From Streptomyces vietnamensis (GTDB lineage Bacteria; Actinomycetota; Actinomycetes; Streptomycetales; Streptomycetaceae): 64,000 nt of DNA. The notes under the pieces are model-generated. The model was not told the origin of the DNA. It did not search any database and was given only the letters and a program-made list of their open reading frames with translations. The translations under genes and the position numbers were made by a program. The first letter of the stretch is position 1; each line of letters starts with the position of its first letter. Location: positions 558,001-622,000 of the forward strand of contig NZ_CP010407.1 of the NCBI RefSeq assembly GCF_000830005.1, read 5' to 3'. Shown here in pieces: positions 11,077-64,000 of this stretch.

Positions 11077-11225
11077 GATTCTGTACCGATTCGTCCGCGT
11101 CTGCCGTGCGCACGGGAGGAGATTCCCGGCACGGACACCGCCGACGCACCTATCACGTCCCCACCACCCCGAACAAGGCCTCCGCCCCAGGAAGTTCCGC
11201 GGTCCGCTCGGTAGCTTCGGCGCCC

Positions 11226-11756
11226 ATGACCACTGCCCCCCTGACATCCCTGGTCGGCGGCGTCTCCGTCGGCCCGGCCGAGATCGCGGACGGCGCCGCA
11301 CTCTGGCGGATCGCCCGCGGCTCGGGCGAACTCGACCTCAACTCGCCGTACAGCTATCTGCTGTGGTGCCGTGACTTCGCCGGCACGACCGCCGTCGCCC
11401 GTGACGCCTCCGGACGGCCGGTGGGCTTCGTCACCGGATACCTGCGGCCCGACGCGCCCGGGACGCTCTTCGTCTGGCAGGTCGCCGTGGAGGGTTCGCA
11501 CCGAGGAACCGGGGTAGCCGGGACCCTGCTCGACGCTCTGGCCGCCCGGGTGGCGGCCGAGCACGGACTCGACCGGGTGGAGGCGACCGTCACACCGGGG
11601 AACCTGGCGTCCGACCGGCTCTTCCGGTCCTTCGCCCGCAGGCACGGCGCCGACCTGACCCACGAGGTCCTGTTCCCGTCCGCCTCCTTCCCCTCCGCGG
11701 GACACGACGCCGAAGTGCTGTACCGCATCGGTCCCTTCGCCCCCGCGGCGTCCTGA
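11226..11756 (+). CDS. ectA: L-2,4-diaminobutyrate acetyltransferase EctA
   Basis: A 176-residue GNAT enzyme that acetylates L-2,4-diaminobutyrate to N-gamma-acetyl-diaminobutyrate, the second step of ectoine synthesis. The N-terminal DLNSPYSYLLWCRDF and the acetyl-CoA motif VEGSHRGTGVAGTLLD are characteristic of EctA. It is the first gene of ectABCD and lies 48 bp before ectB. The frame is open further upstream, but the ATG at 11226 gives the family N-terminus. Confidence 0.95.
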   Translation: MTTAPLTSLVGGVSVGPAEIADGAALWRIARGSGELDLNSPYSYLLWCRDFAGTTAVARDASGRPVGFVTGYLRPDAPGTLFVWQVAVEGSHRGTGVAGTLLDALAARVAAEHGLDRVEATVTPGNLASDRLFRSFARRHGADLTHEVLFPSASFPSAGHDAEVLYRIGPFAPAAS

Positions 11757-11804
11757 GCCGACTCCGCGCCACTCCCCCGCACCACACCCTGGAGAAGAGA
11801 CTTC

Positions 11805-13076
11805 GTGACCCTGACCGACATCGCCGCCCCCTCCGTCTTCGAGACCGTCGAATCCGAGGTCCGCAGCTACTGCCGCGCCTGGCCCGTCGTCTTCGAACGC
11901 GCCAGTGGGAGCCGACTGTACGACGAGGACGGCCGTCCGTACCTGGACTTCTTCGCCGGGGCGGGCTCGCTCAACTACGGCCACAACAACCCGGTGCTCA
12001 AGCGCGCCCTCCTCGACTACCTCGCCGACGACGGCATCACCCACGGCCTCGACATGTCGACGACTGCCAAACGCACCTTCCTCGAGACCTTCCGCGCGAC
12101 GGTCCTCGAACCCCGCGCCCTGCCCTACAAGGTGATGTTCCCCGGTCCCACCGGCACCAACGCCGTGGAGGCCGCCCTCAAACTCGCCCGCAAGGTCACA
12201 GGGCGCCAGACGGTCGTCTCCTTCACCAACGCCTTCCACGGCATGTCGCTCGGCTCGCTGGCCGTCACCGGCAACGCCGCCAAGCGCGCCGGAGCCGGCG
12301 TCCCGCTGCACCACGCCGCCCGGATGCCCTTCGACGACTACCTCGACGGGCAGGTCACCGACTTCCTCTGGTTCGAACGGCTCCTGGACGACGCCGGCTC
12401 CGGCCTCGACCACCCGGCGGCCGTGATCGTCGAGACCGTCCAGGGCGAGGGCGGCATCAACGTCGCACGGGCCGAGTGGCTGCGCGCGCTCGCGGAGCTC
12501 TGCCGCCGGCACGAGATGCTCCTCATCGTCGACGACATCCAGATGGGCTGCGGACGCACCGGCGAGTTCTTCTCCTTCGAGGAGGCGGGCATCACGCCCG
12601 ACATCGTCACCCTGTCCAAGTCCATCAGCGGCTACGGCCTGCCCATGTCCCTCTGCCTCTTCCGGCCGGAGCTCGACCTGTGGGAGCCCGGCGAGCACAA
12701 CGGCACCTTCCGCGGCAACAACCCGGCCTTCGTCACCGCCACGGCCGCCCTCGACGCGTACTGGCGCGACGGCACCCTGCGCGAACGCACCCTGGGCCGG
12801 GCCGGCCGGGTCGAGCGCGCCCTCCTCGACCTGTGCGGCGACGACGGCCGCTCGGGCCTGGCCGTGCGCGGGCGCGGCCTCGTGTGGGGCCTGGAGTTCG
12901 CCGACGGGGAGCGCGCCGCGGCCGTGTGCCGGCGGGCCTTCGAGATCGGCCTGCTCCTGGAGACCTCGGGGCCGCGGGGCGAGGTGGTCAAGCTGCTGCC
13001 ACCGCTGACCGCGACGGACGACGAACTCGACGAGGGCCTCGGCATGCTGGCCCGCTCCGTACGCCACTCCGCCTGA
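11805..13076 (+). CDS. ectB: Diaminobutyrate-2-oxoglutarate transaminase EctB
   Basis: A 423-residue class III PLP-dependent aminotransferase that converts aspartate semialdehyde to L-2,4-diaminobutyrate with glutamate as donor, the first committed ectoine step. The PLP lysine lies in TLSKSISGYGLPMS, and the cofactor-binding aspartate in LLIVDDIQMGCGRTGEFFSF. The length is normal for EctB. The start is GTG after GGAGAAGAG. Confidence 0.95.
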   Translation: MTLTDIAAPSVFETVESEVRSYCRAWPVVFERASGSRLYDEDGRPYLDFFAGAGSLNYGHNNPVLKRALLDYLADDGITHGLDMSTTAKRTFLETFRATVLEPRALPYKVMFPGPTGTNAVEAALKLARKVTGRQTVVSFTNAFHGMSLGSLAVTGNAAKRAGAGVPLHHAARMPFDDYLDGQVTDFLWFERLLDDAGSGLDHPAAVIVETVQGEGGINVARAEWLRALAELCRRHEMLLIVDDIQMGCGRTGEFFSFEEAGITPDIVTLSKSISGYGLPMSLCLFRPELDLWEPGEHNGTFRGNNPAFVTATAALDAYWRDGTLRERTLGRAGRVERALLDLCGDDGRSGLAVRGRGLVWGLEFADGERAAAVCRRAFEIGLLLETSGPRGEVVKLLPPLTATDDELDEGLGMLARSVRHSA

Positions 13077-13112
13077 GACCGCACCGACAGAACCACCCGA
13101 AAGGCCATCGCC

Positions 13113-13529
13113 ATGATCGTCCGTACCTTCGACGAGCTGGAGAACACCGAGCGGCACGTCCGGGCCGCGTCCGGGACCTGGGAGAGCAAGCGCATCGTCC
13201 TCGCCCGCGAACGGGTCGGCTTCTCCCTCCACGAGACCGTGCTCTACGCCGGCACCGAGACCTCCATGTGGTACGCCCACCACGTCGAGGCCGTCGTCTG
13301 CACCGCCGGAGAGGCCGAGCTCACCGACCACGAGACGGGTCGTACGTACACGATCCTGCCCGGAACGATGTACCTGCTCGACGGGCACGAGCGCCACACC
13401 CTCGAGGTCAAGCGGGACTTCCGCTGCCTGTGCGTCTTCAACCCGCCCGTCACCGGGCGCGAGGACCACGACGAGAACGGCGTCTACCCGCTCCTCACGG
13501 AACCCGAATCCGAGCCCGGCCAGGCCTGA
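13113..13529 (+). CDS. ectC: L-ectoine synthase EctC
   Basis: A 138-residue cupin that cyclises N-gamma-acetyl-diaminobutyrate to ectoine. The beginning [16 protein letters not shown] and the cupin segments [13 protein letters not shown] and [13 protein letters not shown], with the metal-coordinating residues, match EctC. It lies 36 bp after ectB in the same operon. Confidence 0.95.
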
Positions 13530-19048: not shown

Positions 19049-20536
19049 TCAGACGTGCCGCTCCGGCGGCCCGTGCAGGTGGACGGAGGCGGGGCCGCCG
19101 GCCGTGCGGTGGCGGTCGGCCCAGGAGTCGAGCGCGGCCCGGCACGCGTGGTCGAGGTGGTGGAGCCCCGAGAGGTCCAGGACGACGGGGCGGTCGCGCG
19201 GCAGGGATTCGAGGGTGTCGAGGATCTTCGGCAGCCGCAGGAAGGTCACGGTGCCCGACAGGCCGACGCGCACCGGCCCCTCCCCCTCGTCGGTGTGGTC
19301 GACGCGGAGGTGGGAGGCGTCCCAGGCCGCTTTGGCGACGGAGACGACGAGCCCGAGGAGGACGCCTTCGAGCATGTTCACGGTGACGATCGCCAGGGCC
19401 GTCACCACGAGGACCAGCGCTTCGCCGCGGTGGCCGCGCCACAGGGTGACGAGGCCGCGGAAGGGGATCAGCTTCCAGCCCGCGTGGACGAGGATCCCGG
19501 CGAGGGCCGCGAGCGGCACGTACTCCAGGGTGCCGGGCAGCAGGGCGGCGAAGAGCAGCAGCCACAGGCCGTGGAGCACGCGGGAGGCCTTGGTCCTGCC
19601 GCCCGCCTGGACGTTGGCGGAGCTGCGGACGATCACGGCGGTCATGGGCAGGGCCCCGAGCAGTCCGCAGAGCGCGTTGCCGCATCCCTGGGCGAGCAGT
19701 TCCCGGTCGTAGTCGGTGGGCGGCCCGTCGTGCAGCCGGTCCACGGCCGCCGCGCTGAACAGGGACTCCGCGGAGGCGATCAGCGCGAAGGCGAGGACGG
19801 TGCCGAGCAGGGCCAGGTCGGTCAGGGCGGAGAGCCCGTCGGGCCCCGGCAGCCGTACGGCGTCCAGTACCCCGCCCACCCGTACGGTCGCCACCGGCAG
19901 GTCGAGCAGGGCGGTCGCGAGCGCCGCGAGGAGGACGGCGACGAGCGCGCCGGGGACGATCCGCACCCGGCGGGGCAGGCGCCGCCAGCCGACGATCACG
20001 AGGACCGTGGCGGCGGCGACGGCGAGCGGGACGAGGGTGGTGCCGCCGGTCACCGCGCGCCCCAGTGCGGTCGGCAGTCCGGCGAGCCGGGCGGGGCCGG
20101 AGGCGGGGGCGTCGAGTCCGGCCGCGGCGTAGAGCTGGCCGGCCACGATGACGAGGCCGATCCCGGCGAGCATGCCCTCGACGACGGAGAGGGAGATGGC
20201 CCGGAACCAACGGCCCCAGCGCAGCAGGCCCATGGCGACCTGGAGCAGACCGGCGAGGAGCACGACGACGCCGAGCCCGGCCGGGCCCAGCGTCCGGACG
20301 GCGTCGAGGACGAGGACGGTGAGGCCGGCGGCGGGGCCGGAGACCTGGATGCTGCTGCCCCGCATGAGGCCGGTGACGGCGCCGCCGACGATGCCGGTGA
20401 CGAGACCGAGTTCGGCGGGGACGCCGGAGGCGACGGCCACGCCGATGCAGAGGGGCAGCGCGACGAGGAAGACGACGAGGGAGGCGGCGAAGTCCTGCCG
20501 GAGGTACGGAAAGGAGGAGGCCATACAGGGGGTCAT
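19049..20536 (-). CDS. SulP family anion transporter with C-terminal STAS domain
   Basis: A 495-residue membrane protein with 10-12 hydrophobic helices (SLVVFLVALPLCIGVAVASG at the start is the SulP signature region) and a STAS domain from about residue 400 (PVVLDLSGLHHLDHACRAAL). It may carry sulfate, bicarbonate or another anion. Unlike some Streptomyces SulP proteins there is no fused carbonic anhydrase. The ATG at 20536 has GAGGG upstream; a second ATG 12 nt later is possible. Confidence 0.85.
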   Translation of the reverse strand: MTPCMASSFPYLRQDFAASLVVFLVALPLCIGVAVASGVPAELGLVTGIVGGAVTGLMRGSSIQVSGPAAGLTVLVLDAVRTLGPAGLGVVVLLAGLLQVAMGLLRWGRWFRAISLSVVEGMLAGIGLVIVAGQLYAAAGLDAPASGPARLAGLPTALGRAVTGGTTLVPLAVAAATVLVIVGWRRLPRRVRIVPGALVAVLLAALATALLDLPVATVRVGGVLDAVRLPGPDGLSALTDLALLGTVLAFALIASAESLFSAAAVDRLHDGPPTDYDRELLAQGCGNALCGLLGALPMTAVIVRSSANVQAGGRTKASRVLHGLWLLLFAALLPGTLEYVPLAALAGILVHAGWKLIPFRGLVTLWRGHRGEALVLVVTALAIVTVNMLEGVLLGLVVSVAKAAWDASHLRVDHTDEGEGPVRVGLSGTVTFLRLPKILDTLESLPRDRPVVLDLSGLHHLDHACRAALDSWADRHRTAGGPASVHLHGPPERHV

Positions 20537-53378: not shown

Positions 53379-55691
53379 TCACTCGAAGGCCGCTGCGGCC
53401 TCCTTCAGTGCGGCGGCGACCGTCTCCGGGGCGTCGGGGCCCGGGGCGCCCGGGCGGTAGGTGACCGAGCGGAGGCGGCCGGTGTAGCGGAAGGAGCGGT
53501 GGCGCTCGTAGAGGGGCCAGGAGACCGGGGACTTGCGGTCGACGCCGACGCTGATGCCCTGGAAGGGGGCCATGCCGATGAGCTGGTGGACGCTGTCCGG
53601 CGCGGCCCGGTGTCCGCCGTCGACGGTGACGGTGAAGCGCCAGCGCAGGCCCTTCTCGGCCGTCGCCGCGAGGAGGATCTCGTGGGGGCCGGGGGCGAGC
53701 GGGCCCGCGTCGGTCTCGTGGAGGTCACCGTACTCGTTGTACGCGAAGGTCAGCCGGCCGTTCTCGACGTACAGGCTGTAGCCGCCGCCCTGGTCGCCGT
53801 GGGAGACGAGGACGCCGTCGCCGGTCTCGTCGACGGCCACGGCGATCTCGAAGGAGCGCAGGGAGACAAGCCGTGAGGAGCGGTAGCGCTCCAGTTCCGG
53901 GGTGCCGGGGAGGAGGGTGAGGGGGCGGGCGAGGCGCTCCTCGGCGGGGTTGCGGCGGGCGAGGGCGCCGCTGTGGTCGGGGAGCGGGAAGACGCCGTTG
54001 CGCCAGGCGGCCTCCTCCCAGGCGGCCGAGAGTTCCTTGACCAGTTCGGGGTGCTCGGCGGCGAGGTCGTGGATCTCCGTGGGGTCGGTGCGGATGTCGT
54101 ACAGGGCCCATTCGGAGTCGTCGTAGGGCGCCCCGGGCCGGTGCAGGGTGACGAGCTTGTGGCCGTCGCGGTAGTGGCTGCGGTTGCCGGACATCTCGCA
54201 GTACTGCTCGGGGTGGGTGGAGTCGTGGGAGGGGTCGGCGAGGACGGCGGTGAAGCTGGTGCCGTCCGGTTCCTGGAGCGGGACCCCCCGGCGGGTCTCG
54301 GGGCGGGCGAGGCCGGCGAGTTCGAGGAGGGTGGGTGCGATGTCGGTGACGTACTGGTACTGGGGCCGGTGCCCGGTGGCGAGCCTGCCGTCCCTGACGC
54401 CCTCCGGCCAGGAAAGGACGAAGGGGACGCGGACGCCGCCCGCGTAGGTGTCGCCCTTGTAGAGGCGGAAGGGGGTGTTGGAGGCCATGCCCCAGCCGCG
54501 GGGGTAGTGGACGAGGCTGCGGGGGCCGCCGATGAGCTCGGGGTCGCGGTCGACGTCCGGGTTCCAGTCGCCGGGCACCGGCTGGTGGACGAAGCGGCTG
54601 AAGTAGGAGCGGGTGCCTTCTCTTCCGCCCTCCCCCGTGCCGCCGTTGTCGGAGGTGAAGACGATGATGGTGTTGTCAAGTTCGCCGAGTGCGGCGAGGG
54701 TGTCGGTGAGCCGGCCGAGGTTCTGGTCGATGTTGTCGACGAGGGCCGCGTACACCTCCATGTAGCGGGCGTAGAGCCGCTTCTGGTCTTCCGTCAGGGA
54801 GTCCCAGGCGGGGACGTCGAGTCCGGCTTCGCTGTTGCGTTCGGGGAGTTCGGTGCCGGGCGGGAAGAGTCCGGCGGCGATCTGGGCGGCGAAGCGCCGC
54901 TCGCGCAGGGCGTCCCAGCCCTCGTCGTAGCGGCCGCGGTGGCGGGCGATGTCCTCGGCCTTGGCCTGGAGGGGGCCGTGGACGGCGTTGTGCGCGAGGT
55001 AGAGGAAGAAGGGCTTGTCGGGGTCGTGGGCGCGCAGCGACTTCACCATGGAGATCGCCTGGTCGGTGATGTCGTCGGTGTAGTAGTAGTCGTCGGGGAA
55101 CTCGTCGATGTCGAGGGGGCTGTTGTCCCGGACGAGCTGGTGCGGGTGGAAGAGGCTGGTGAGGCCCTCCAGGACGCCGTAGTACTGGTCGAAGCCCTTC
55201 TGGAGCGGCCAGTTGCCGCGGTGGTCGGCGGCGTTGGAGGCGGAGTCGCGGACGAGGTGCCACTTGCCGACGGCGTACGTGGCGTAGCCGGCGTCGTGGA
55301 GGAGCTCGGCGAGGGTGGGGATGTCGTCGGCGACCTCCATGCCGTAGCCGGGGAAGCCGGGATCGAAGTTGGCGACCATGCCGTAGCCGACGCGGTGCGG
55401 GTTGAGGCCGGTGAGCAGGGCGGCGCGGGCCGGGGAGCAGAGCGGCATGGTGTGGTAGTTGCCGAGCCGCACGCCCGCGTCGGCGAGGCCGTCGAGAACG
55501 GGGGTGGGGATCTCGGAGCCGAAGGGGCCGATGTCGCTGTATCCCATGTCGTCGACGAGGACGACCACGATGTTGGGGGCCTTGGCGGGCGGGGTGGTAC
55601 GGGTCGGCCAAGCGGGCTCGGACTCGGCGAAGGTGCGGCCGACACGGCCGGCGAAGCCCTCGTAGGGGTCGCGTCGGGGGGCGGTGCTCAT
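53379..55691 (-). CDS. Formylglycine-dependent sulfatase (arylsulfatase family), cytoplasmic
   Basis: A 770-residue type I sulfatase that hydrolyses a sulfate ester to an alcohol plus sulfate. Metal-binding Asp47-Asp48 lie in VLVDDMGYSD. Cys85 in PLCSPARAALLTG is the CxPxR site that FGE converts to formylglycine. Further conserved parts are VGKWHL and FTSDNGG. An extra beta-rich C-terminal domain (about 570-770) resembles those of large arylsulfatases. There is no signal peptide, so the substrate must be imported. It overlaps the FGE gene by 4 bp (ATGA) and ends the operon. Confidence 0.92.
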   Translation of the reverse strand: MSTAPRRDPYEGFAGRVGRTFAESEPAWPTRTTPPAKAPNIVVVLVDDMGYSDIGPFGSEIPTPVLDGLADAGVRLGNYHTMPLCSPARAALLTGLNPHRVGYGMVANFDPGFPGYGMEVADDIPTLAELLHDAGYATYAVGKWHLVRDSASNAADHRGNWPLQKGFDQYYGVLEGLTSLFHPHQLVRDNSPLDIDEFPDDYYYTDDITDQAISMVKSLRAHDPDKPFFLYLAHNAVHGPLQAKAEDIARHRGRYDEGWDALRERRFAAQIAAGLFPPGTELPERNSEAGLDVPAWDSLTEDQKRLYARYMEVYAALVDNIDQNLGRLTDTLAALGELDNTIIVFTSDNGGTGEGGREGTRSYFSRFVHQPVPGDWNPDVDRDPELIGGPRSLVHYPRGWGMASNTPFRLYKGDTYAGGVRVPFVLSWPEGVRDGRLATGHRPQYQYVTDIAPTLLELAGLARPETRRGVPLQEPDGTSFTAVLADPSHDSTHPEQYCEMSGNRSHYRDGHKLVTLHRPGAPYDDSEWALYDIRTDPTEIHDLAAEHPELVKELSAAWEEAAWRNGVFPLPDHSGALARRNPAEERLARPLTLLPGTPELERYRSSRLVSLRSFEIAVAVDETGDGVLVSHGDQGGGYSLYVENGRLTFAYNEYGDLHETDAGPLAPGPHEILLAATAEKGLRWRFTVTVDGGHRAAPDSVHQLIGMAPFQGISVGVDRKSPVSWPLYERHRSFRYTGRLRSVTYRPGAPGPDAPETVAAALKEAAAAFE

Positions 55692-56611
55692 GCGGGGGCG
55701 GGTCCTTCCGGGAGGGGCGAGCGGGCGCAGCGGAAGCCGCCGTGGCCGGTCGAGGAGTCGGGGGTGTTGTGGGAGCGGGCGGCGACCCGGTAGCGGTTGC
55801 AGTAGGAGGCGTGGCAGAGGTAGGAGCCGCCGCGGATCACGCGCTCGGCGGGGCCGAAGGCGTCGGCGCACCACTCCCAGACGTTGCCGGAGGTGTTGTG
55901 GAGGCCGTACCCGTTGGGTTCGTACGCCGTGACGGGGACGGTGCCGATGCGTCCGCCGGGCCTCTCGGAGCGGTGCGGGAAGGTGCCGATCCAGGTGTTG
56001 CACCTCTCGCGGCCGTCCGGGGTGAACTCGTCGCCCCAGGGGTAGCGGGCGGAGTCGAGGCCGCCGCGGGCCGCGTACTCCCATTCGGCCTCGGTGGGCA
56101 GCCGGACGCCGGCCCAGGCGCAGTACGCGAGGGCGTCGTCGTACGAGATGTGGACGACGGGGTGGTCGGCGCGGCCTTCGAGGTCGGAGCCGGGACCCTC
56201 CGGGCTGTGCCAGGCGGCCCCTGCGACGCCGAGCCACCAGGGGGCCTGCGGGACCCGGCCGAGGACGTGGCGTTCGGCGTCGGGGTGGAGCAGGAGGTGG
56301 AAGACGAAGGAGGAGCCGAAGCGTTCGGCGTCGGTGCGGTGCCCGGTGGCCTCGACGAACGCGGCGTACCGGGCGTTGGTGACGGCGGTCGCGTCGATCG
56401 CGAAGGGGGCGACGGTGACCTCCCGTACGGGTCCCTCGCGGTCGGTGGGATAGCCCTCGCCGAAGGCGTCGCCCATGCGGAACGTGCCGCCCGGCAGCTC
56501 CACCATGGGGTGGGGCGGCGGGGAGGTCCGTACGGTCGGCAGCGGCAGGAGTTCGACGGCCGCCGGGTGGCCTCCCGTACAGCCGCGTCCCGGGGTGCAG
56601 CAGGCGCTCAC
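55688..56611 (-). CDS. Formylglycine-generating enzyme (SUMF1/FGE)
   Basis: A 307-residue FGE that oxidises the CxPxR cysteine of the sulfatase to formylglycine using copper and oxygen. The key pair Cys266 and Cys271 is in RGGSYLCHASYCNRYR, equivalent to the active-site pair of human and Streptomyces FGE. FRMG, VSYDDALAYCAWAG and WEYAARGG are typical. The N-terminus has an additional CCTPGRGC cluster. The GTG at 56611 overlaps the ATPase stop by 4 bp, and the stop overlaps the sulfatase start, so both are translationally coupled. Confidence 0.92.
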   Translation of the reverse strand: MSACCTPGRGCTGGHPAAVELLPLPTVRTSPPPHPMVELPGGTFRMGDAFGEGYPTDREGPVREVTVAPFAIDATAVTNARYAAFVEATGHRTDAERFGSSFVFHLLLHPDAERHVLGRVPQAPWWLGVAGAAWHSPEGPGSDLEGRADHPVVHISYDDALAYCAWAGVRLPTEAEWEYAARGGLDSARYPWGDEFTPDGRERCNTWIGTFPHRSERPGGRIGTVPVTAYEPNGYGLHNTSGNVWEWCADAFGPAERVIRGGSYLCHASYCNRYRVAARSHNTPDSSTGHGGFRCARSPLPEGPAPA

Positions 56612-58482
56612 GCGGACACCGCCTCGGCCACGGCGCGTACGGGCACGGGTTCGGGCGCGGCGGCGAGCAGCGCCCGGGTGTAGGGGTCGCGGGGGCGCTC
56701 GCACAGCTCGTCGGCGTCGCCGGTCTCCACGATCCTGCCGCCGTGCATGACGGCGATGCGGTGGCTGACCTGGCGGACGACGGCCAGGTCGTGGGCGATG
56801 AAGACGAGGGCGAGGCCCAGGTCGCGCTGGAGGTCGGTGAGCAGGCCGACGATCTGGGCCTGGACGGAGACGTCGAGGGCCGAGACGGGTTCGTCGCAGA
56901 TGAGGACGGCCGGTTCGGGGGCGAGGGCGCGCGCGATGCCGATGCGCTGGCGCTGCCCGCCGGAGAAGGAGCGCGGGTGCCGGTCGGCGGCGGCCGGGTC
57001 GAGGCCGACGAGGCGGAGGAGGTCCGCGACGCGGTCGGCCCGCTCCCCGGGGGCGCCGATACCGAAGGCGCGCAGTGGTTCGGCGACGATCTCGCCGACG
57101 GTCATGCGGGGATTGAGGGAGGCGTAGGGGTCCTGGAAGACCATCTGGACGCGGCGGCGTACGGCGTGCAGCTCGGCGCGGCCGGGGCGGGTGACGTCCC
57201 GGCCGTCGAGGAGGATGCGGCCGCCGTCGGCGGGGTGGGCGTGGGCGAGGACCCGGGCGAGGGTGGACTTGCCGGAGCCGGACTCGCCGACGATGCCGAG
57301 GGTCTCCCCCGCCGCGAGGGTGAGGGAGACGTCGTCGAGGGCGGTGAAGCGGCGTCGGCGGCGGCCGTACGTCTTGCTCAGCGACTCGGCGGCGAGGACG
57401 GTGGCGCCGGGTGCGGGGCGGTCGATGCGGGCGGGGGGCGGGGGAAACAGCGGTTCGTCCCGTTCGGCGCCTTCGGCGGCGGGCAGGCAGGCGACGCGGA
57501 CGGTGTCGCCGGACGCGTTCGGCTGCGGTACGGCGGGGAGGGTGGATACGGCGGTGAGCGGGGGTACGGCCGTGTGGCAGCGGTCCTCGGCGAGGGCGCA
57601 GCGGGCGGCGAAGGCGCAGCCGGCGAGCGGGAGGCTCAGGTCGGGCGGGGTGCCGGGGATGCCGGTGAGGCGGGTGCCGGAGGGTGCGGAGAGCCGGGGC
57701 ACGGCGGCGAGGAGGCCGGCGGTGTAGGGGTGGCGCGGTCGGGTGAGGACCTCGGCGGTGGGGCCGTCCTCCACGACGGTGCCGCCGTACATGACCAGGA
57801 CGCGTTCGCAGGCGCGGGCGACGACGCCCATGTTGTGGGTGATGAGGACGAGCGCGGTGCCAGTGGTACGGGTGAGCTCGCCGAGGAGGGTGAGGATCTG
57901 GTCCTGGACGGTGGCGTCGAGGGCGGTTGTGGGTTCGTCGGCGAGGAGGACGTCGGGTTCGCCGGCGAGGGCCATGGCGATGAGGACGCGTTGGCGCTGG
58001 CCGCCGGAGAACTGGTGCGGGTGGTCGTCGAGGCGGCGCTCGGGGTCGGGGATGCCGACGAGGCGCAGGAGCTCGACGGCGCGGTCCTTGCGCGCCCGCT
58101 TGTCGCGCCCGCCGTGCGCGCGGAGCACCTCGTCGAGGTGGCGGCCGACGGTGAGGACGGGGTTGAGGGCCGTCATCGGGTCCTGGAAGACCATGCCGAT
58201 CCGGGCACCGCGCACGGCCCGCAGCCGGTCCTCGCCGGCGGTGGCGAGGTCCTCGCCGTCGAGGCGTACGGCGCCGCCGGTGATCCGGCCGGTGCCGGGG
58301 AGCATGCGGAGCAGGGCGAGGGCGGTGGTGGACTTCCCGGAGCCGGACTCCCCGACGACGGCGAGGGTCTCACCCCGCCGGAGCGTGAAGGAGACGTCCC
58401 GGACGGCGTACAGGGTGCCGCCGTCGGGGGTGGTGAACTCCACGTCCAGGCCCTGGACTTCGAGGAGCGGTGGGGTGGTCAT
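56608..58482 (-). CDS. Dual-domain ABC transporter ATP-binding protein (DppD-DppF fusion)
   Basis: A 624-residue protein with two complete nucleotide-binding domains of the peptide/nickel class. The first has Walker A GESGSGKST (about 45-52) and FSGGQRQRVLIAMAL, followed by the C-terminal oligopeptide-transport extension with CAFAARCALAEDRC. The second has Walker A near residue 400 and FSGGQRQRIGIARAL. Together they form the ATPase of the importer. It overlaps the upstream permease by 4 bp. Confidence 0.92.
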   Translation of the reverse strand: MTTPPLLEVQGLDVEFTTPDGGTLYAVRDVSFTLRRGETLAVVGESGSGKSTTALALLRMLPGTGRITGGAVRLDGEDLATAGEDRLRAVRGARIGMVFQDPMTALNPVLTVGRHLDEVLRAHGGRDKRARKDRAVELLRLVGIPDPERRLDDHPHQFSGGQRQRVLIAMALAGEPDVLLADEPTTALDATVQDQILTLLGELTRTTGTALVLITHNMGVVARACERVLVMYGGTVVEDGPTAEVLTRPRHPYTAGLLAAVPRLSAPSGTRLTGIPGTPPDLSLPLAGCAFAARCALAEDRCHTAVPPLTAVSTLPAVPQPNASGDTVRVACLPAAEGAERDEPLFPPPPARIDRPAPGATVLAAESLSKTYGRRRRRFTALDDVSLTLAAGETLGIVGESGSGKSTLARVLAHAHPADGGRILLDGRDVTRPGRAELHAVRRRVQMVFQDPYASLNPRMTVGEIVAEPLRAFGIGAPGERADRVADLLRLVGLDPAAADRHPRSFSGGQRQRIGIARALAPEPAVLICDEPVSALDVSVQAQIVGLLTDLQRDLGLALVFIAHDLAVVRQVSHRIAVMHGGRIVETGDADELCERPRDPYTRALLAAAPEPVPVRAVAEAVSA

Positions 58483-59336
58483 CGGCGTATCTCCCGGTTC
58501 AGTGCCTCGGCGGTCAGGGAGAGGCCGAGGACGAGCGCGGTCACGGTCACGAGCGGTCCGGCGGCGAAGTGCGGGGCCTGGGCGAGGTAGGGCATGGACT
58601 GGCTGAGGACGGCTCCGAGGGTGGGCTCGGGGGGCCGGACGCCGACGCCGAGGAAGCTCATGGCGCCTTCGACGAAGACGGCGACGGTGAGGGAGACGGC
58701 GATCTGGACGACGAGCGGGTCGGCGGCGTTGGGCAGGATGTGCCGGGTGAGGATCCGGCCGCCGGAGGTGCCGCCGACGCGGGCGGCCGTCACGTACTCC
58801 CGGCCGCGCTGGACGAGGATGCCGGTGCGCAGGAGCCGTCCGAAGACGGGGATCTCGGCGAGGGCGATGACGAGGACCACGGGCAGCCGGCCGGGGCCGA
58901 GGATCGCGGTCACGGCGAGCGCGAGGATCAGTCCGGGGAAGGCGAGGATCAGGTCGAAGGTCCGCTGGACGACGGTGTCGAGGACCGGGTGTACGGCGGC
59001 GGCCAGGGCGAGGAGGCAGCCGAGGGCGGCGCCGAGCGGGACGGCGGCGGCGATGATGCCGAGGTCCGCGCGGATGCCGTACAGGAGGCGGGCGAGGAGG
59101 TCGCGGCCCAGGTCGTCGGTGCCGAGCGGGTGGCCGGGGGTGCCGGGCACGGCGAGCGCCAGGCCGCTCTGGTCGGTGGGGCCGTGTCCGGCGAGGAGCG
59201 GGGCGAGGAGCCCCGCGAGGACGACGGCGGCGACGAGGGCGAGACCGGTGCGGCCGCGGGCGGTGCCGAGGGCGGCGCGGTAGCCGTGGCGGGGGCGACG
59301 CGCGCGGGGCGAAGCGGGCTTGGTGAGCGTGGTCAT
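58479..59336 (-). CDS. ABC transporter permease (DppC-like)
   Basis: A 285-residue inner-membrane permease with the DppC N-terminal helix, a GTDDLGRDLLARLLYG segment characteristic of the peptide class, and an EAA loop (YVTAARVGGTSGGRILTRHILPN). The ATG at 59336 has GGGAG 8 nt upstream; a GTG at 59345 that overlaps the upstream stop is an alternative. Confidence 0.9.
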   Translation of the reverse strand: MTTLTKPASPRARRPRHGYRAALGTARGRTGLALVAAVVLAGLLAPLLAGHGPTDQSGLALAVPGTPGHPLGTDDLGRDLLARLLYGIRADLGIIAAAVPLGAALGCLLALAAAVHPVLDTVVQRTFDLILAFPGLILALAVTAILGPGRLPVVLVIALAEIPVFGRLLRTGILVQRGREYVTAARVGGTSGGRILTRHILPNAADPLVVQIAVSLTVAVFVEGAMSFLGVGVRPPEPTLGAVLSQSMPYLAQAPHFAAGPLVTVTALVLGLSLTAEALNREIRR

Positions 59337-59341
59337 GGCGG

Positions 59342-60286
59342 TCACTCCCACCTGATCCGGGGGTCGAGCCAGGCGTGGACGAGGTCGGTGAGGAGCTGGA
59401 CGAGGACGAAGACGGTGACGAGGAGGAGCAGGAGGTCCTGGACGACGGGGTAGTCGCGGCGGATCAGGGCTTGTTCGGCGAGCTGTCCGAGGCCGGGCCA
59501 GGCGAAGATCGCCTCGACGAGGACGGCGCCGCCGAGGAGGTAGCCGGTCTGCATGCCGAGAAGGGTGACGACGGGCGGGAGGGCGTTGGGCAGGGCGTGC
59601 CTCAGCAGGAGGCGGCGGGGGGCGATGCCGGCGGCGGTGGCGGTGCGGACGTAGTCCTCGGCGAGGGCGCGTTCGATGCCGTCCTCGAGGTAGCGGCCGA
59701 GGACGGCGGCGCTGGGCAGGGCGAGGCAGAGCGAGGGCAGCAGCAGGTACTGGACGCCGAGGTCGGGTGCGGTGAGAAGGGGGACGCGGCCGCCCGGGGG
59801 CAGGACGCCGAGGAGGACGGAGAAGAGGAGGACGAGGAGGACACCGGTGACGAAGGGCGGCACGGCGAGGGCACCGGTCGTGAGGACGCGTACGGTGCCG
59901 AGGACCCAGCGGTTGCGGGCGGTCGCGCCGAGGATGCCGAAGGCGGCGCCGAGGACGACGACGAACAGCAGGGCCCCGAGGGTGAGTTCGACGGTGGCGC
60001 CGAGTCCGTCGCCGATGAGGTCGGCGGTCCGGCCGCCGATCGCGTAGGACGGTCCGAGGTCGCCGGTGAGGAGGTCGCCGAGCCAGCGGACGTACTGGGT
60101 GGGCAGGGGCGCGTCGAGGCCGAGGCGCGCCCGGATCACGGCCTCGGTCTCGGCGCTCGCGTCGGGTCCGGCGAGGACGGCGGCCGGGTCGCCGGGGACG
60201 AGTCGGAGGACGGCGAAGGCGAGGAAGGAGGCGGCGAGGAGGACGAGGAGGGCGGAGGGGAGTCTCCGGAGCAGGTAGCCGCGCAT
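59342..60286 (-). CDS. ABC transporter permease (DppB-like)
   Basis: A 314-residue permease with the DppB-type N-terminus (YLLRRLPSALLVLLAASFLAFAVLRLVPGDPA) and EAA loop (YVRTATAAGIAPRRLLLRHALPNALPP). It heterodimerises with the DppC-like subunit. The gene begins 1 bp after the stop of the solute-binding gene. Confidence 0.9.
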   Translation of the reverse strand: MRGYLLRRLPSALLVLLAASFLAFAVLRLVPGDPAAVLAGPDASAETEAVIRARLGLDAPLPTQYVRWLGDLLTGDLGPSYAIGGRTADLIGDGLGATVELTLGALLFVVVLGAAFGILGATARNRWVLGTVRVLTTGALAVPPFVTGVLLVLLFSVLLGVLPPGGRVPLLTAPDLGVQYLLLPSLCLALPSAAVLGRYLEDGIERALAEDYVRTATAAGIAPRRLLLRHALPNALPPVVTLLGMQTGYLLGGAVLVEAIFAWPGLGQLAEQALIRRDYPVVQDLLLLLVTVFVLVQLLTDLVHAWLDPRIRWE

Positions 60287-60287
60287 C

Positions 60288-61880
60288 TCAGCCCGCCAGG
60301 TAGGCGTCGTCGAGGTTGAGGTAGGCGAACTTGTTGAGGGTGACGCCGTGCAGCTTCTTCGCGGAGACCTGGACGGAGCCGCGGATGACGAGGTCGATGA
60401 TGAACGCCTCGTCGAGGAGGGTGTCGGTGATCTGCTGCCGCAGCGCGTTGGCGCGGGCGCCGGTCGCGGGGGTGGTCCAGGCTTCGCGGACGACCTTCGT
60501 GTAGGCGGCGGAGCGGAACTTCGAGGTGTTCTTGGCCTCGTTGAAGGGGTAGGCGCTGACGGCGAGGGTGGAGGGCTGCACCTGGGCGAAGCCGTGGCCC
60601 ATGGTCCAGAGGGCGGGCATGGACTGGGAGATGAGCTTCTTCTGGGCGGTGGCCGGGTCGGTGGGCTGGAGGGTGACCTGGACGCCGATCTGCTTGAGGT
60701 CGTACTGGATCGCTTCGGCGACCGCGGTGTCGCCGGGCAGGCCGAGATGCAGCAGCGGGAGGTCGAGCCGGGAGTGACCGGCGGACTTGAGGAGTTCGCG
60801 GGCCTTGCCGGGGTCGTACGTGTAGTGGGTGCGGCCGGCCTCGGTGAAGGCGGGCGAGGACTTGGGCCAGGGGGTGGCGGAGGCGAGACCGTGACCGCCG
60901 AGGACCTGCTTGAGGATGCGCTCGCGGTCGATGCCCCAGGCGAGGGCCTGCCGGACGGTCTTGTCGTTCAGCGGGGCCACGGTGGTGTTGACGCCGAGGT
61001 ACAGGGCTCCGGCTCCGGTGGCGTACTCGCCGAGGGCGAGATCGGGGGTGGTGGCGACGGTGGCGAGGTTGTTGCCGGGGACGTCGAAGGAGAGCTGGGA
61101 CTGGCCGGTGCGGAGGGAGGAGAGCAGGGCGTCGGCCTGGGGTACGACGCGGAACTCGACGGCGTCCAGGTAGGGACGGTCGGGCTGCCAGTACTTCTCG
61201 TTCCGGATGAAGCCGAGACCGGCGCCGGGGCTCCACTTGGTCAGCTTGAAGGGGCCCGTGCCGTTGAGCTTCTTGCCGGTGACGGCGTCCTCGACGCTGT
61301 TCCGGTCGGTGAGGATCATGAACTCGAAGAGGTCGAACAGGTTGTTCACCGGGTGGGCGAGCTTGAGCACGAGTTCGTGGTCGCCATGCTTCTCGAAACC
61401 GGCGACGGCGGCGGCCGTCGCCCTCAACTGCGAGGCTCGGACCGGATTCTGAAGGTTCTTCACCGCGAAGATCACGTCGTCGGCGGTGAACGGCCGACCG
61501 TCGTGGTAGGTCACGCCGGTGCGCAGCTTGAGCGTGATGCTGCGGCCGTCCTTCGCGTACTCCCAGGAGGTGGCGAGTTCGGGCTGCGGCTTCAGCTGGT
61601 CGTCGTACCGGGTGAGGGTGTTGTAGATCAGCCGCTGCTGGAGCGACTGGCCGCTCTGGGCGAAGAGCAGGCTCGGTGTGAAGTCCGAGTTGATGGCGAC
61701 GGTGAGGGTGCCGCCGCGCTCCGGCTCCGTGGCGGCCTTGCCGGCGGGCGCCTCGGCCTCGGAGACCGCGGAGCGGCAGCCCGTGAGGCCGAGCCCGAGC
61801 AGCAGGGTGCCGCCGCCCGCGGCGCGCAGGGTCGTGCGCCGGGAGAGGGCGGTGGGCGTGGAGGAGTACAGCTCGGTCAT
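60288..61880 (-). CDS. Family 5 solute-binding lipoprotein of the sulfate-ester operon
   Basis: A 530-residue SBP_bac_5 (peptide/nickel/sugar) binding protein. The N-terminus has SRRTTLRAAG and the lipobox GLTGC with Cys35. The family segments GGTLTVAINSD, TVKLRTGVTYHDGRPFTADDVIFAV and RQALAWGIDRERI are seen. Family 5 proteins bind peptides, opines or oligosaccharides. In this operon the ligand is inferred to be an organic sulfate ester. The ATG at 61880 begins about 340 nt after the predicted transcription start, leaving a long regulated leader. Confidence 0.88.
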   Translation of the reverse strand: MTELYSSTPTALSRRTTLRAAGGGTLLLGLGLTGCRSAVSEAEAPAGKAATEPERGGTLTVAINSDFTPSLLFAQSGQSLQQRLIYNTLTRYDDQLKPQPELATSWEYAKDGRSITLKLRTGVTYHDGRPFTADDVIFAVKNLQNPVRASQLRATAAAVAGFEKHGDHELVLKLAHPVNNLFDLFEFMILTDRNSVEDAVTGKKLNGTGPFKLTKWSPGAGLGFIRNEKYWQPDRPYLDAVEFRVVPQADALLSSLRTGQSQLSFDVPGNNLATVATTPDLALGEYATGAGALYLGVNTTVAPLNDKTVRQALAWGIDRERILKQVLGGHGLASATPWPKSSPAFTEAGRTHYTYDPGKARELLKSAGHSRLDLPLLHLGLPGDTAVAEAIQYDLKQIGVQVTLQPTDPATAQKKLISQSMPALWTMGHGFAQVQPSTLAVSAYPFNEAKNTSKFRSAAYTKVVREAWTTPATGARANALRQQITDTLLDEAFIIDLVIRGSVQVSAKKLHGVTLNKFAYLNLDDAYLAG

Positions 61881-62111
61881 CGATGCCTGCCTGTGAAAGA
61901 GGGTGTGAGGCGAAAGAGGGTGTGAAGCCGCAGGGTGCACGGATTCGTTCCGCTGCGGAAGGAAGAGGCGCGAAGGGAGGCCCGCGCGGCCGGCGGAGGG
62001 CGTGCGGAGGTACGCGGTGGGGTGCGCCGTCACACGGGAAGGGCGTACGGCGTGTCAGCGAGGGGGGTGCGAGGGGCCCGCGTGCGGCGTGGCCGGGGCG
62101 GGAGTGGCGAG

Positions 62112-62129
62112 GCCGGTGCGGCGACCGGC
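62112..62129 (-). promoter_or_regulatory. Hairpin after the leader peptide (candidate attenuator element)
   Basis: GCCGGT and ACCGGC arms (6 bp, 6-nt loop) lie 8 nt after the leader peptide stop on the minus strand. Ribosome stalling in the leader could change folding here. The leader 61881-62136 holds no other gene. Confidence 0.4.
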
Positions 62130-62136
62130 GCCGGGG

Positions 62137-62220
62137 TCAGGCGCGGACGGCACAGACCGCACTGGCCTGTCGACAGAGGTCGACGTGCCTGCGGGAGATG
62201 AGGTGCATGTCCGGATTCAC
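62137..62220 (-). CDS. Cys-containing regulatory leader peptide
   Basis: A 27-codon open frame (GTG start) encoding a peptide with RRHVDLCRQASAVCAVRA at its C-terminus. Many actinobacterial sulfur, cysteine and sulfonate genes are preceded by short peptides of this form (RxHVDLxRxxSxxC). I know this from annotated putative leader peptides, not from a search. The two Cys codons near the end would stall ribosomes when cysteinyl-tRNA is low. The GTG lies about 6 nt after the predicted -10, so it may be leaderless; an internal ATG (codon 5) is an alternative start. Confidence 0.7.
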   Translation of the reverse strand: MNPDMHLISRRHVDLCRQASAVCAVRA

Positions 62221-62226
62221 GGGAGC

Positions 62227-62270
62227 AATATGACAGCGGCTTCACGGAGCGGTCAACCGGCATTGACCGC
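62227..62270 (-). promoter_or_regulatory. Operon promoter and inverted-repeat operator
   Basis: On the minus strand, -35 TTGACC (62251-62256), an 18-bp spacer and -10 CATATT (62227-62232) precede the leader peptide. GCGGTCAA-N6-TTGACCGC (62249-62270) is a perfect inverted repeat covering the -35, a likely repressor site, perhaps for the adjacent ROK protein. Confidence 0.6.
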
Positions 62271-62284
62271 ATGATGAGACGACA

Positions 62285-63517
62285 TCAGCTTTCACACAGG
62301 GCGGGAAGCAGCTCTCCTGAGGTCTCAAGAGGCCTTCTGAACAGGGGATTCAGCAGAACCGTGCCCGCCGCGACGGGCAGCGTGGCCGGTCCAGCATGTG
62401 GACTGACGATGCGTTCGGGGTCGTCGCAGACGTGCGAGAGGTCGATCGCGGCCCCGCGGATCTCCTCCAGATAGTCCGGTTCGAGGATGCTGGACTGCTC
62501 GGTCACGACGACCAGATCGGGGTTGAGGACGTCGAGGAGCAGGGCGACGGCGCGGCCGACCGCACGCGCCCGTTCGCGCAGCAGCCGGTCGGCGCGCCGG
62601 TCCCCGGCCGCCGCCGCGTCCACGACCAGGAAGGTGTCGGGCTCGGGCACGATGCCCCGGCGGACGGCCGTGGTCGCGAGGGCGGTGTTCGACGCCGTGG
62701 CCTCCAGGCAGCCGGAACGTCCGCACGGGCAGGGTGCCGTGGAGTCCGGTACGGGCAGGTGGGCCACGTCCCCGGCCGCCGCGCCGGGTCCCTGGTGCAC
62801 GACGCCGGCGAGGCCGACGGCCGCGTCGACGACATTGCCGACGAAGAGGTGGACCAGGCTGCGGCGGGCGGCGGGCCGCCCGAAGAGGATCTCCGACTGG
62901 GCGATGGAGCGCGCGTGGTTGTCCAGGCGTACGGTGCGTCCGCCGAGGCCGCGGGCGAGTTCGGCGGCGAGCGGCCGACGGCGCCAGCCCAGGGCGTCGT
63001 GCCGGACGACCACCCCCTCGGCGGGGTCCACCCAGCCGCCGACCGCGGCGCCCACCCCGAGCAGGGGGCGCCCCCGCGCATGGGCGTCGAGGAATCCGCG
63101 CAGTTCACGGGCGATCGCGGCGGGCAGGGCGTCCGGCGCGATGCCGTCGTGGGGGTAGGTGCGCCGGGCGACCACCTGTCCGCGCAGGTCGACGAGGGCG
63201 AACGTCGAGCCGGGGACGCCCAGGTGGACGCCGCCCGCGACGGGCCCGGCGATGGCTCCGATGTGCAGGTCGACGGGGATCTGGGGCCGTCCGACTCCCC
63301 CGCCCCCGGCGAGTTCGGGCAGCTCGCGCAGGAGGCCGAGGCGGGTGAGGTCGGTCGCCTGGCGCGAGACGGCGGCGGGGCTGAGGCCGGAGAGCCGCGC
63401 GACGGCACTGCGGGCGACCGGGCCGTGATCGAGGACGGTCCTCAGCACGGTGGCGGCATTGGCCTCGCGCCGGCCGTCGCCCGCCATGCGAGAACCGTGC
63501 GGGGTGGTCGTCGTCAT
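62285..63517 (-). CDS. ROK family transcriptional regulator
   Basis: A 410-residue ROK repressor. The N-terminal winged helix (VLDHGPVARSAVARLSGLSPAAVSRQATDL) is followed by an ROK sugar-kinase-like domain with the zinc motif CPCGRSGCLEATAS. ROK repressors sense sugars or sugar phosphates. The ATG at 63517 has GAGAGG upstream. It lies immediately upstream of the sulfatase operon promoter on the same strand and is the best candidate regulator of it. Confidence 0.88.
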   Translation of the reverse strand: MTTTTPHGSRMAGDGRREANAATVLRTVLDHGPVARSAVARLSGLSPAAVSRQATDLTRLGLLRELPELAGGGGVGRPQIPVDLHIGAIAGPVAGGVHLGVPGSTFALVDLRGQVVARRTYPHDGIAPDALPAAIARELRGFLDAHARGRPLLGVGAAVGGWVDPAEGVVVRHDALGWRRRPLAAELARGLGGRTVRLDNHARSIAQSEILFGRPAARRSLVHLFVGNVVDAAVGLAGVVHQGPGAAAGDVAHLPVPDSTAPCPCGRSGCLEATASNTALATTAVRRGIVPEPDTFLVVDAAAAGDRRADRLLRERARAVGRAVALLLDVLNPDLVVVTEQSSILEPDYLEEIRGAAIDLSHVCDDPERIVSPHAGPATLPVAAGTVLLNPLFRRPLETSGELLPALCES

Positions 63518-63993: not shown

Positions 63994-64000
63994 ATGTCGA
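63994..64000 (+). CDS. Start of a plus-strand gene cut by the window end
   Basis: ATGTCG at the very end is preceded by GAAAGGA at a good distance and by an AT-richer stretch near 63930-63957 that may hold its promoter. Only the first two codons are in the window, so the product is unknown. Confidence 0.5.

Follow-up and report, generated by a model that had tools for sequence, protein, structure and literature searches.

A Streptomyces operon and its conserved neighbours, predicted to import organic sulfate esters intact and to desulfate them in the cytoplasm

Organic sulfur in soil is described as consisting mainly of sulfate esters and sulfonates (PMC4267179), and the literature that we found holds no description of sulfate-ester uptake by Streptomyces. 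How such esters might enter the cell is the question raised by a locus of Streptomyces vietnamensis, in which genes for an ATP-binding cassette (ABC) importer, a formylglycine-generating enzyme (FGE) and a sulfatase form one operon. The locus lies in a 64,000-nucleotide stretch of the 9.15 Mb genome (contig NZ_CP010407.1, positions 558,001 to 622,000), called the window below. An earlier note on this DNA had proposed a self-contained operon that imports an intact sulfate ester and hydrolyses it inside the cell. Our analysis indicates that the locus is likely to be a sulfur-scavenging module under cysteine-starvation control, through which intact aryl or alkyl sulfate esters would be imported and desulfated in the cytoplasm; the ligand, the direction of transport and the mechanism of regulation are what we infer.

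The operon runs along the minus strand from 62220 to 53379. The open reading frame (ORF) list and family models give, in this order, a leader ORF and the genes for a solute-binding protein (SBP), two permeases, an ATPase, FGE and the sulfatase (Table 1). The genes are tightly packed, with 1 nt between SBP and permease 1 and exact 4-bp overlaps, read from the junction letters, between permease and ATPase (ATGA), ATPase and FGE (GTGA), and FGE and sulfatase (ATGA). Order, strand and overlaps agree with the description in the earlier note. A fourth 4-bp overlap, GTGA, could join the two permease genes if permease 2 starts at GTG 59345. The arrangement goes beyond chance, because it recurs in other genomes.

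The sulfatase combines the PF00884 domain with the motif CSPARAALLTG, which corresponds to the C-x-P-x-R...LTG signature of formylglycine (FGly; type I, S1) sulfatases. Cys85 is invariant across an alignment of 18 sequences, and CxPxRxxxLTG was matched in 75 of 78 named sulfatase relatives, counting the best matched stretch only; the nearest of these relatives are from Streptomyces. Identity to Pseudomonas aeruginosa AtsA (1hdh) is 39.3% over 509 positions, and 1hdh is assigned to SulfAtlas family S1_4 (PMC5066984). The best-matching named characterised relative is an arylsulfatase of this family; among solved structures, 7all scores above 1hdh. No hydrophobic segment is present in the 36 residues ahead of the sulfatase domain. 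The highest 15-residue Kyte-Doolittle mean within the first 38 residues is -0.31, compared with 1.31 at the start of the SBP and 1.79 for an exported-looking sulfatase encoded elsewhere in the genome. Judged from this hydropathy of the N-terminus, the sulfatase appears to be cytoplasmic. The conversion of the sulfatase cysteine to formylglycine by FGE is established chemistry. The putative FGE of the operon has the PF03781 domain and, aligned to the solved FGE 6muj, keeps both active-site cysteines of SYLCHASYCNRYR. The retained CSPAR motif, the missing signal peptide and the two FGE cysteines had all been noticed earlier and held up here. About 200 additional C-terminal residues of the sulfatase (53382-54000) are matched neither by Pfam nor by the structure alignment with AtsA.

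A search of genome contigs with the sulfatase yielded 78 named loci, 69 of which extend more than 7 kb upstream. All four transporter genes (at least 50% identity) precede the sulfatase on the same strand in 49 of the 69, and the order SBP, permease 1, permease 2, ATPase, optional FGE, sulfatase spans Streptomyces, Kitasatospora, Yinghuangia and Embleya. The check that had been suggested for the operon, recurrence of its gene order in other genomes, thus turned out in its favour. Of these 49 transporter loci, 44 have a gene for a ROK-family regulator upstream in the same orientation, and 41 have a homologue of the alkylsulfatase dioxygenase AtsK (at least 50% identity) upstream (26 divergent, 15 on the same strand). 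In five of the eight loci without AtsK, the fetched DNA stops right by the ROK gene, so that only L156, L165 and L169 lack AtsK in view. A leader matching a strict pattern was found in 29 of the 49, and a looser pattern adds L165 and L169. FGE (at least 70% identity) precedes the sulfatase in 22. The claim of a self-contained operon therefore has to be given up: the conserved locus also takes in a ROK regulator and a dioxygenase of the AtsK type, and FGE is optional. Co-occurrence was also evaluated over 293 genomes of the order, that of S. vietnamensis included, excluding a sulfatase fragment of G290 and a 41%-identical SBP of G244. A full sulfatase orthologue (at least 80% identity) is present in 15 of the 293 genomes, and an SBP orthologue (at least 60%) in 14 of the 293. 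Both occur together in 12 genomes (Fisher p 6e-17, in a test that ignores relatedness).

The dioxygenase gene extends beyond the window to the equivalent of position 64953 (L092:1995-2954; genome positions 621994-622950 without the stop codon). Among solved structures, its product is closest to P. putida AtsK (E 6.7e-113) and Mycobacterium tuberculosis Rv3406, both alkyl sulfatases, and the taurine dioxygenase model scores 221.5, below its cutoff of 313. The S2 alkylsulfodioxygenases of SulfAtlas are recognised by an identity to AtsK of at least 30% across some 300 residues and by an HxD/E...H motif (PMC5066984). The protein shares 61% of aligned positions (172 of 282) with P. putida AtsK and has the iron motif HxD...H as WHSD...QHY, which places it in S2, the family of Rv3406 and AtsK; it differs from these two in being encoded next to genes for an importer and an FGly sulfatase. 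For both AtsK and Rv3406, 2-ethylhexyl sulfate is the preferred substrate, and Rv3406 is required for growth with this ester as the sole sulfur source (PMC3675115). In the host genome, atsK is divergent from the ROK gene. Between the two, at about 63745, a TTGACG element kept in part of the relatives is followed by a short ORF (MFATSSCP... in several); this could be a second leader-like ORF, but some relatives do not keep it.

Table 1. Features of the locus, with positions numbered from the first letter of the window.
Feature	Position	Strand	Basis
AtsK-type alkylsulfatase dioxygenase gene, first seven bases	63994..64000	+	Best solved relative P. putida AtsK
ROK-family regulator	62285..63517	-	PF00480
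Predicted promoter TTGACC-18-CATATT	62227..62256	-	Pattern scan, one match against 0.1 expected in shuffled sequence
Leader peptide ORF MNPDMHLISRRHVDLCRQASAVCAVRA, GTG start, 27 aa, two Cys codons (both TGT)	62137..62220	-	NF042934
Leader-to-SBP gap, possible attenuation site	61881..62136	-	Alignment, composition
Solute-binding lipoprotein (SBP), family 5, twin-arginine translocation (Tat)/lipobox-like start	60288..61880	-	PF00496
Opp-type permease 1	59342..60286	-	PF00528 and PF19300
Opp-type permease 2	58479..59345	-	PF00528; start GTG 59345 or ATG 59336
Two-domain ABC ATPase, OppD+OppF-like	56608..58482	-	PF00005 (ABC_tran) twice, PF08352
FGE	55688..56611	-	PF03781, 263 bits; best solved relatives are the FGEs 6muj and 2q17
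FGly sulfatase, 770 aa, cytoplasmic-looking	53379..55691	-	PF00884, 200 bits; CSPAR motif

Is the locus controlled by cysteine? The leader ORF scored 36.9 bits against NCBIfam NF042934 (cutoff 27) in its 23-residue ATG version, in line with the leader peptide that the earlier note had placed at the head of the operon. The start is more probably GTG 62220, which gives 27 residues, than ATG 62208, and this ATG reads AAG in some relatives. With a loose peptide pattern, the leader was found ahead of the SBP in 31 named loci. A GTG-CCGGAC-type start is shared by 29 of them; these letters served as the selection pattern for the 29 loci. TTGACC, which lies outside the selection pattern, is found upstream in 29/29, and CATATT in 27/29. 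Because the predicted promoter ends 6 nt ahead of the GTG, measured from its second hexamer, a leaderless operon mRNA is suggested. Cysteine is encoded by TGT at 59 of 61 positions in the 29 operon leaders, compared with 2 of 27 in eight genes (operon, ROK and neighbouring esterase). Among 30 coding-like ORFs of the window, TGT makes up 5 of 83 cysteine codons and TGC 78. The last cysteine of the leader consensus is TGT in the operon and in all eight other leaders of this genome that pass the model cutoff. Selection may possibly act on the cysteine codon of the leader, or on the DNA or RNA motif itself.

A genome scan with NF042934, with scoring applied to 150 of the 337 first-look candidates, gave 20 matches, nine of them over the cutoff; no over-cutoff match was found in any of 14 control genomes. 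All nine leaders sit before sulfur-related genes on the same strand, named here at family level since several fall below the cutoffs of their curated models. Besides the operon studied here, the downstream genes encode an exported-looking sulfatase; a ThiS-like protein followed by cysteine synthase; cysteine dioxygenase; an alkanesulfonate-monooxygenase (SsuD)-like protein and, further along, a taurine-type SBP; sulfite and 3'-phosphoadenosine 5'-phosphosulfate (PAPS) reductases; a permease followed by SsuA (SsuA/SsuC-type); rhodanese; and two NMT1/SsuA-like proteins. The count of nine excludes five below-cutoff leader matches with fetched surroundings (L084-L087 and L091), one of which, L084, has Ser at a consensus Cys. 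The leader therefore marks a sulfur regulon, and one leader family heads both exported-looking and cytoplasmic-looking sulfatases. The exported-looking sulfatase belongs to a second leader-sulfatase unit of the same genome (L076:5812-7405; G000:C1:285811-287404), and its export start is twin-arginine-like.

In mycobacteria, leaderless polycysteine ORFs are reported to be cysteine-responsive attenuators (Canestrari 2020, cited in PMC9031893). Cysteine-rich leaders of Actinobacteria are covered by the models NF042934, NF042933 and NF042936. The Streptomyces leader exceeds the first of these, yet it differs in having only two, non-contiguous cysteine codons and in falling short of the cutoffs set for the Ms5788A and Ms4527A models. 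The leader might not be a cysteine sensor here, the ROK protein alone controlling the operon and the leader ORF being a relic or serving another role. The stretch between leader and SBP would fit this alternative, as its sequence is unconserved in the alignment and RNA folding of the leader region gave no convincing structure (z -1.53); the one terminator-like site found, against 0.5 expected by chance, is near chance level. No leader was found by pattern in Kitasatospora-type loci, although these keep the transporter. We nevertheless regard a leader without cysteine sensing as unlikely, given the conservation of peptide and promoter in 29 loci, the sulfur-related genes behind nine of nine over-cutoff leaders and the mycobacterial precedent. 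The gap is C-rich (C 0.51, G 0.24), and a Rho-type signal was considered; the contrast with the genes is modest, because C is abundant in the coding genes of the locus as well (C 0.41-0.48, G 0.26-0.34). Scanned against Rfam with gathering thresholds, the window gave no match, and hence no curated riboswitch or attenuator that passes them.

The relatives of the locus differ in their parts. In G210 (L191), another FGly sulfatase (PF00884, 597 aa) takes the place behind FGE. In eight loci (L065-L067, L122, L132, L133, L136 and L137), some of which are one genome fetched twice, the 597-residue sulfatase is an extra gene between FGE and the sulfatase. A third sulfatase (486 aa) lies past atsK in L125 and several others; two kinds were seen together in a locus, but not all three. 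The transporter is missing from 20 loci (L140, L142, L146, L147, L162, L167, L168, L170, L171, L174, L175, L176, L180, L181, L182, L183, L185, L188, L189 and L190). Family models found Ssu/NMT1-type importers near the sulfatase in all four of the transporter-less relatives that were checked, namely Frankia (L146), Acidimicrobiaceae (L168), Glycomyces (L170) and Acidimicrobiia (L174). The last of these, a metagenome-assembled genome, seemingly has two such sulfatase genes in tandem (L174:8162-12875) with an Ssu-type ABC importer nearby. In L162, a leader immediately precedes the sulfatase. In three loci of the same genus (L194-L196), genes for another ABC importer and for a luciferase-like monooxygenase lie beside atsK, and two of these loci also have a ROK gene at about 70% identity; Pfam identified the L195 binding protein as NMT1 and its monooxygenase as Bac_luciferase, and the other two loci were judged from translations. 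G261 (L193) has the ROK-atsK pair alone, besides a distant ATPase match. The common theme, as read from these gene sets, is an importer together with sulfate-ester cleaving enzymes without export signals. The locus also suggests a modular exchange of importers and sulfatases, with AtsK/ROK as the core.

What, then, does the importer carry? The SBP starts with SRRTTLRA...LTGC, a twin-arginine and lipobox pattern, and its AlphaFold2 model (mean pLDDT 78) has the expected family 5 fold. The enzymes of the locus, an FGly sulfatase and an AtsK-type dioxygenase, favour small aryl and medium-chain alkyl sulfates as the likeliest ligands. Several observations weigh against this assignment and against the import of sulfate esters as a whole, beginning with the importer class. 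Peptides, nickel chelates, opines or sugars are the usual cargo of Opp importers and family 5 SBPs. In two structure comparisons, the SBP model gave near-tie matches to AapF, AgaA (opine), DppA, AccA (agrocinopine), sialic acid binders and nickel binders; model-based matches of this kind single out no ligand class. An importer for ordinary peptides or a metal chelate, merely co-regulated with the sulfatase or accidentally beside it, would agree with the SBP (PF00496) and Opp permeases scoring best against peptide/nickel system models, and with DppA and AppA being among the nearest folds. It would also agree with G205 (L192), where AtsK, ROK and the transporter are present and no sulfatase or FGE was detected in the fetched DNA. 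The fold and domain order are indeed those of Opp/Dpp/Nik importers (DppA, AppA, AgaA, AapF, NikA), from which the Streptomyces importer differs in its link to sulfatase genes and in one position of the binding site. Asp408 of DppA contacts the peptide N-terminus. The aligned SBP residue is Gly, and G, S, D, N or T in relatives (26 sequences, in an alignment of modest quality), so that the Asp408 equivalent expected of a peptide-binding DppA/OppA protein is absent. A plain peptide ligand is weakened because this position is Gly and not conserved. Further, the gene order is conserved across four genera, the sulfatase co-occurs in 12 of the 14 SBP genomes, and among the checked loci the same sulfatase or AtsK repeatedly has importers of another kind close by. 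Together, these points make a peptide or chelate importer very improbable.

A second group of observations concerns sugars. ROK proteins usually respond to sugars, and the ROK gene adjoins the operon. Genes for a PfkB-type carbohydrate kinase and a GH32 glycosidase lie at L092:5534-9907, 2.6-7 kb past atsK. The ligand could accordingly be a sulfated sugar or glycoside, with ROK sensing the sugar and the sulfatase freeing sulfur and perhaps carbon. The ROK zinc motif CxCGxxGC is kept, and proteins related in fold to the SBP include binders of sialic acid, agrocinopine and glucose-2-phosphate. ROK proteins usually carry ExGH as their sugar motif; at this position the protein has DVAH, of which Asp250 and His253 do not vary across an alignment of 11 sequences, and judged from this motif its effector may be other than an ordinary sugar. 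The AtsK neighbour belongs to an alkyl-sulfate family, and the best named characterised relative of the sulfatase is an S1_4 arylsulfatase. The PfkB gene was found in one and GH32 in none of 93 fetched loci, which is weak evidence because many of these loci stop near atsK. On balance, a sugar sulfate has a small chance of being the ligand.

The remaining points against import of intact sulfate esters concern the linkage of the parts. No FGE was found in 27 of the 49 transporter loci, in which the FGly motif is nonetheless kept. The gene lists of L140, L147, L162 and L185 show no importer beside the sulfatase, and the sole importer of L142, although Opp-type, lies about 6 kb away on the other strand. 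In the host genome, atsK, being divergent, is not co-transcribed with the operon. AtsK/TauD-like proteins occur in 166 of the 293 genomes at E 1e-60; it is therefore the adjacency of AtsK, not its presence, that carries the argument.

Weighed against these points, the import and cytoplasmic desulfation of intact sulfate esters remains our preferred interpretation. As far as sequence comparison can tell, the conserved context supports well the import and internal cleavage that had been proposed earlier; the self-contained operon gives way to a locus that also contains AtsK and ROK. In the proposed mechanism, ribosomes would slow at the cysteine codons of the leader when cysteine is low, and transcription or translation would continue into the operon. 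The SBP lipoprotein would catch an organic sulfate ester, and the Opp-type importer would carry it into the cell intact. FGE would turn the active-site cysteine of the sulfatase into formylglycine. In the cytoplasm, the FGly sulfatase would hydrolyse the ester, or the AtsK-type dioxygenase would cleave it oxidatively, releasing sulfate for assimilation. The ROK protein is probably the controller of the atsK/operon pair. With more reserve, we lean towards a wider interpretation: the Opp-type importer may be a dedicated sulfate-ester transporter that replaced the Ssu type in Streptomycetaceae and serves modular cytoplasmic sulfatases (three FGly kinds) and AtsK under a leaderless cysteine-sensing peptide.

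The earlier note had called import followed by desulfation an unusual route. A comparable system has been described in Pseudomonas sp. UW4, in which the cluster atsACBR-sftR-atsK-sftP is assigned to the desulfurization of sulfate esters (PMC3596284). Because this cluster follows the same logic, the route is not new in kind. The Pseudomonas cluster unites an arylsulfatase, a sulfate-ester ABC importer, a regulator and AtsK, the Streptomyces locus has the predicted counterparts of all four, and Pseudomonas enzymes are homologous to those of Streptomyces (AtsA 39%, AtsK 61%, from PDB sequences). The two loci differ in the importer, which is annotated as aliphatic-sulfonate (Ssu) type in Pseudomonas and is of the Opp type in Streptomyces, and in the regulator, which is the LysR protein SftR in the former and ROK with a leader peptide in the latter. 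The Pseudomonas cluster includes a TonB receptor, and none was seen in the Streptomyces locus; the Streptomyces operon contains an FGE gene, unlike the ats cluster as presented in that source. An Ssu-type importer and a LysR-type SftR define the Pseudomonas-type ats cluster, to which the Streptomyces operon accordingly does not belong. By analogy, the best reading is that the Streptomyces locus works like the ats cluster, as its actinobacterial counterpart. The new parts are the importer class, the control by a leader and the modularity. We recognised no description of this Streptomyces locus in a literature search that mostly left subscription journals outside its reach, and in the literature searched we found no description of sulfate esters as ligands of family 5 SBPs or Opp importers.

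Elsewhere in the window, a SulP-family sulfate permease gene lies at 19052-20536. At 11106-13529, a class III aminotransferase gene stands together with short genes, in what looks like an ectoine biosynthesis cluster.

For Streptomyces, the locus supplies named genes, a likely class of ligands and a regulatory switch, and thereby makes the question of sulfate-ester uptake directly testable. For family 5 binding proteins, whose models carry peptide and nickel names, it predicts a new class of ligand.

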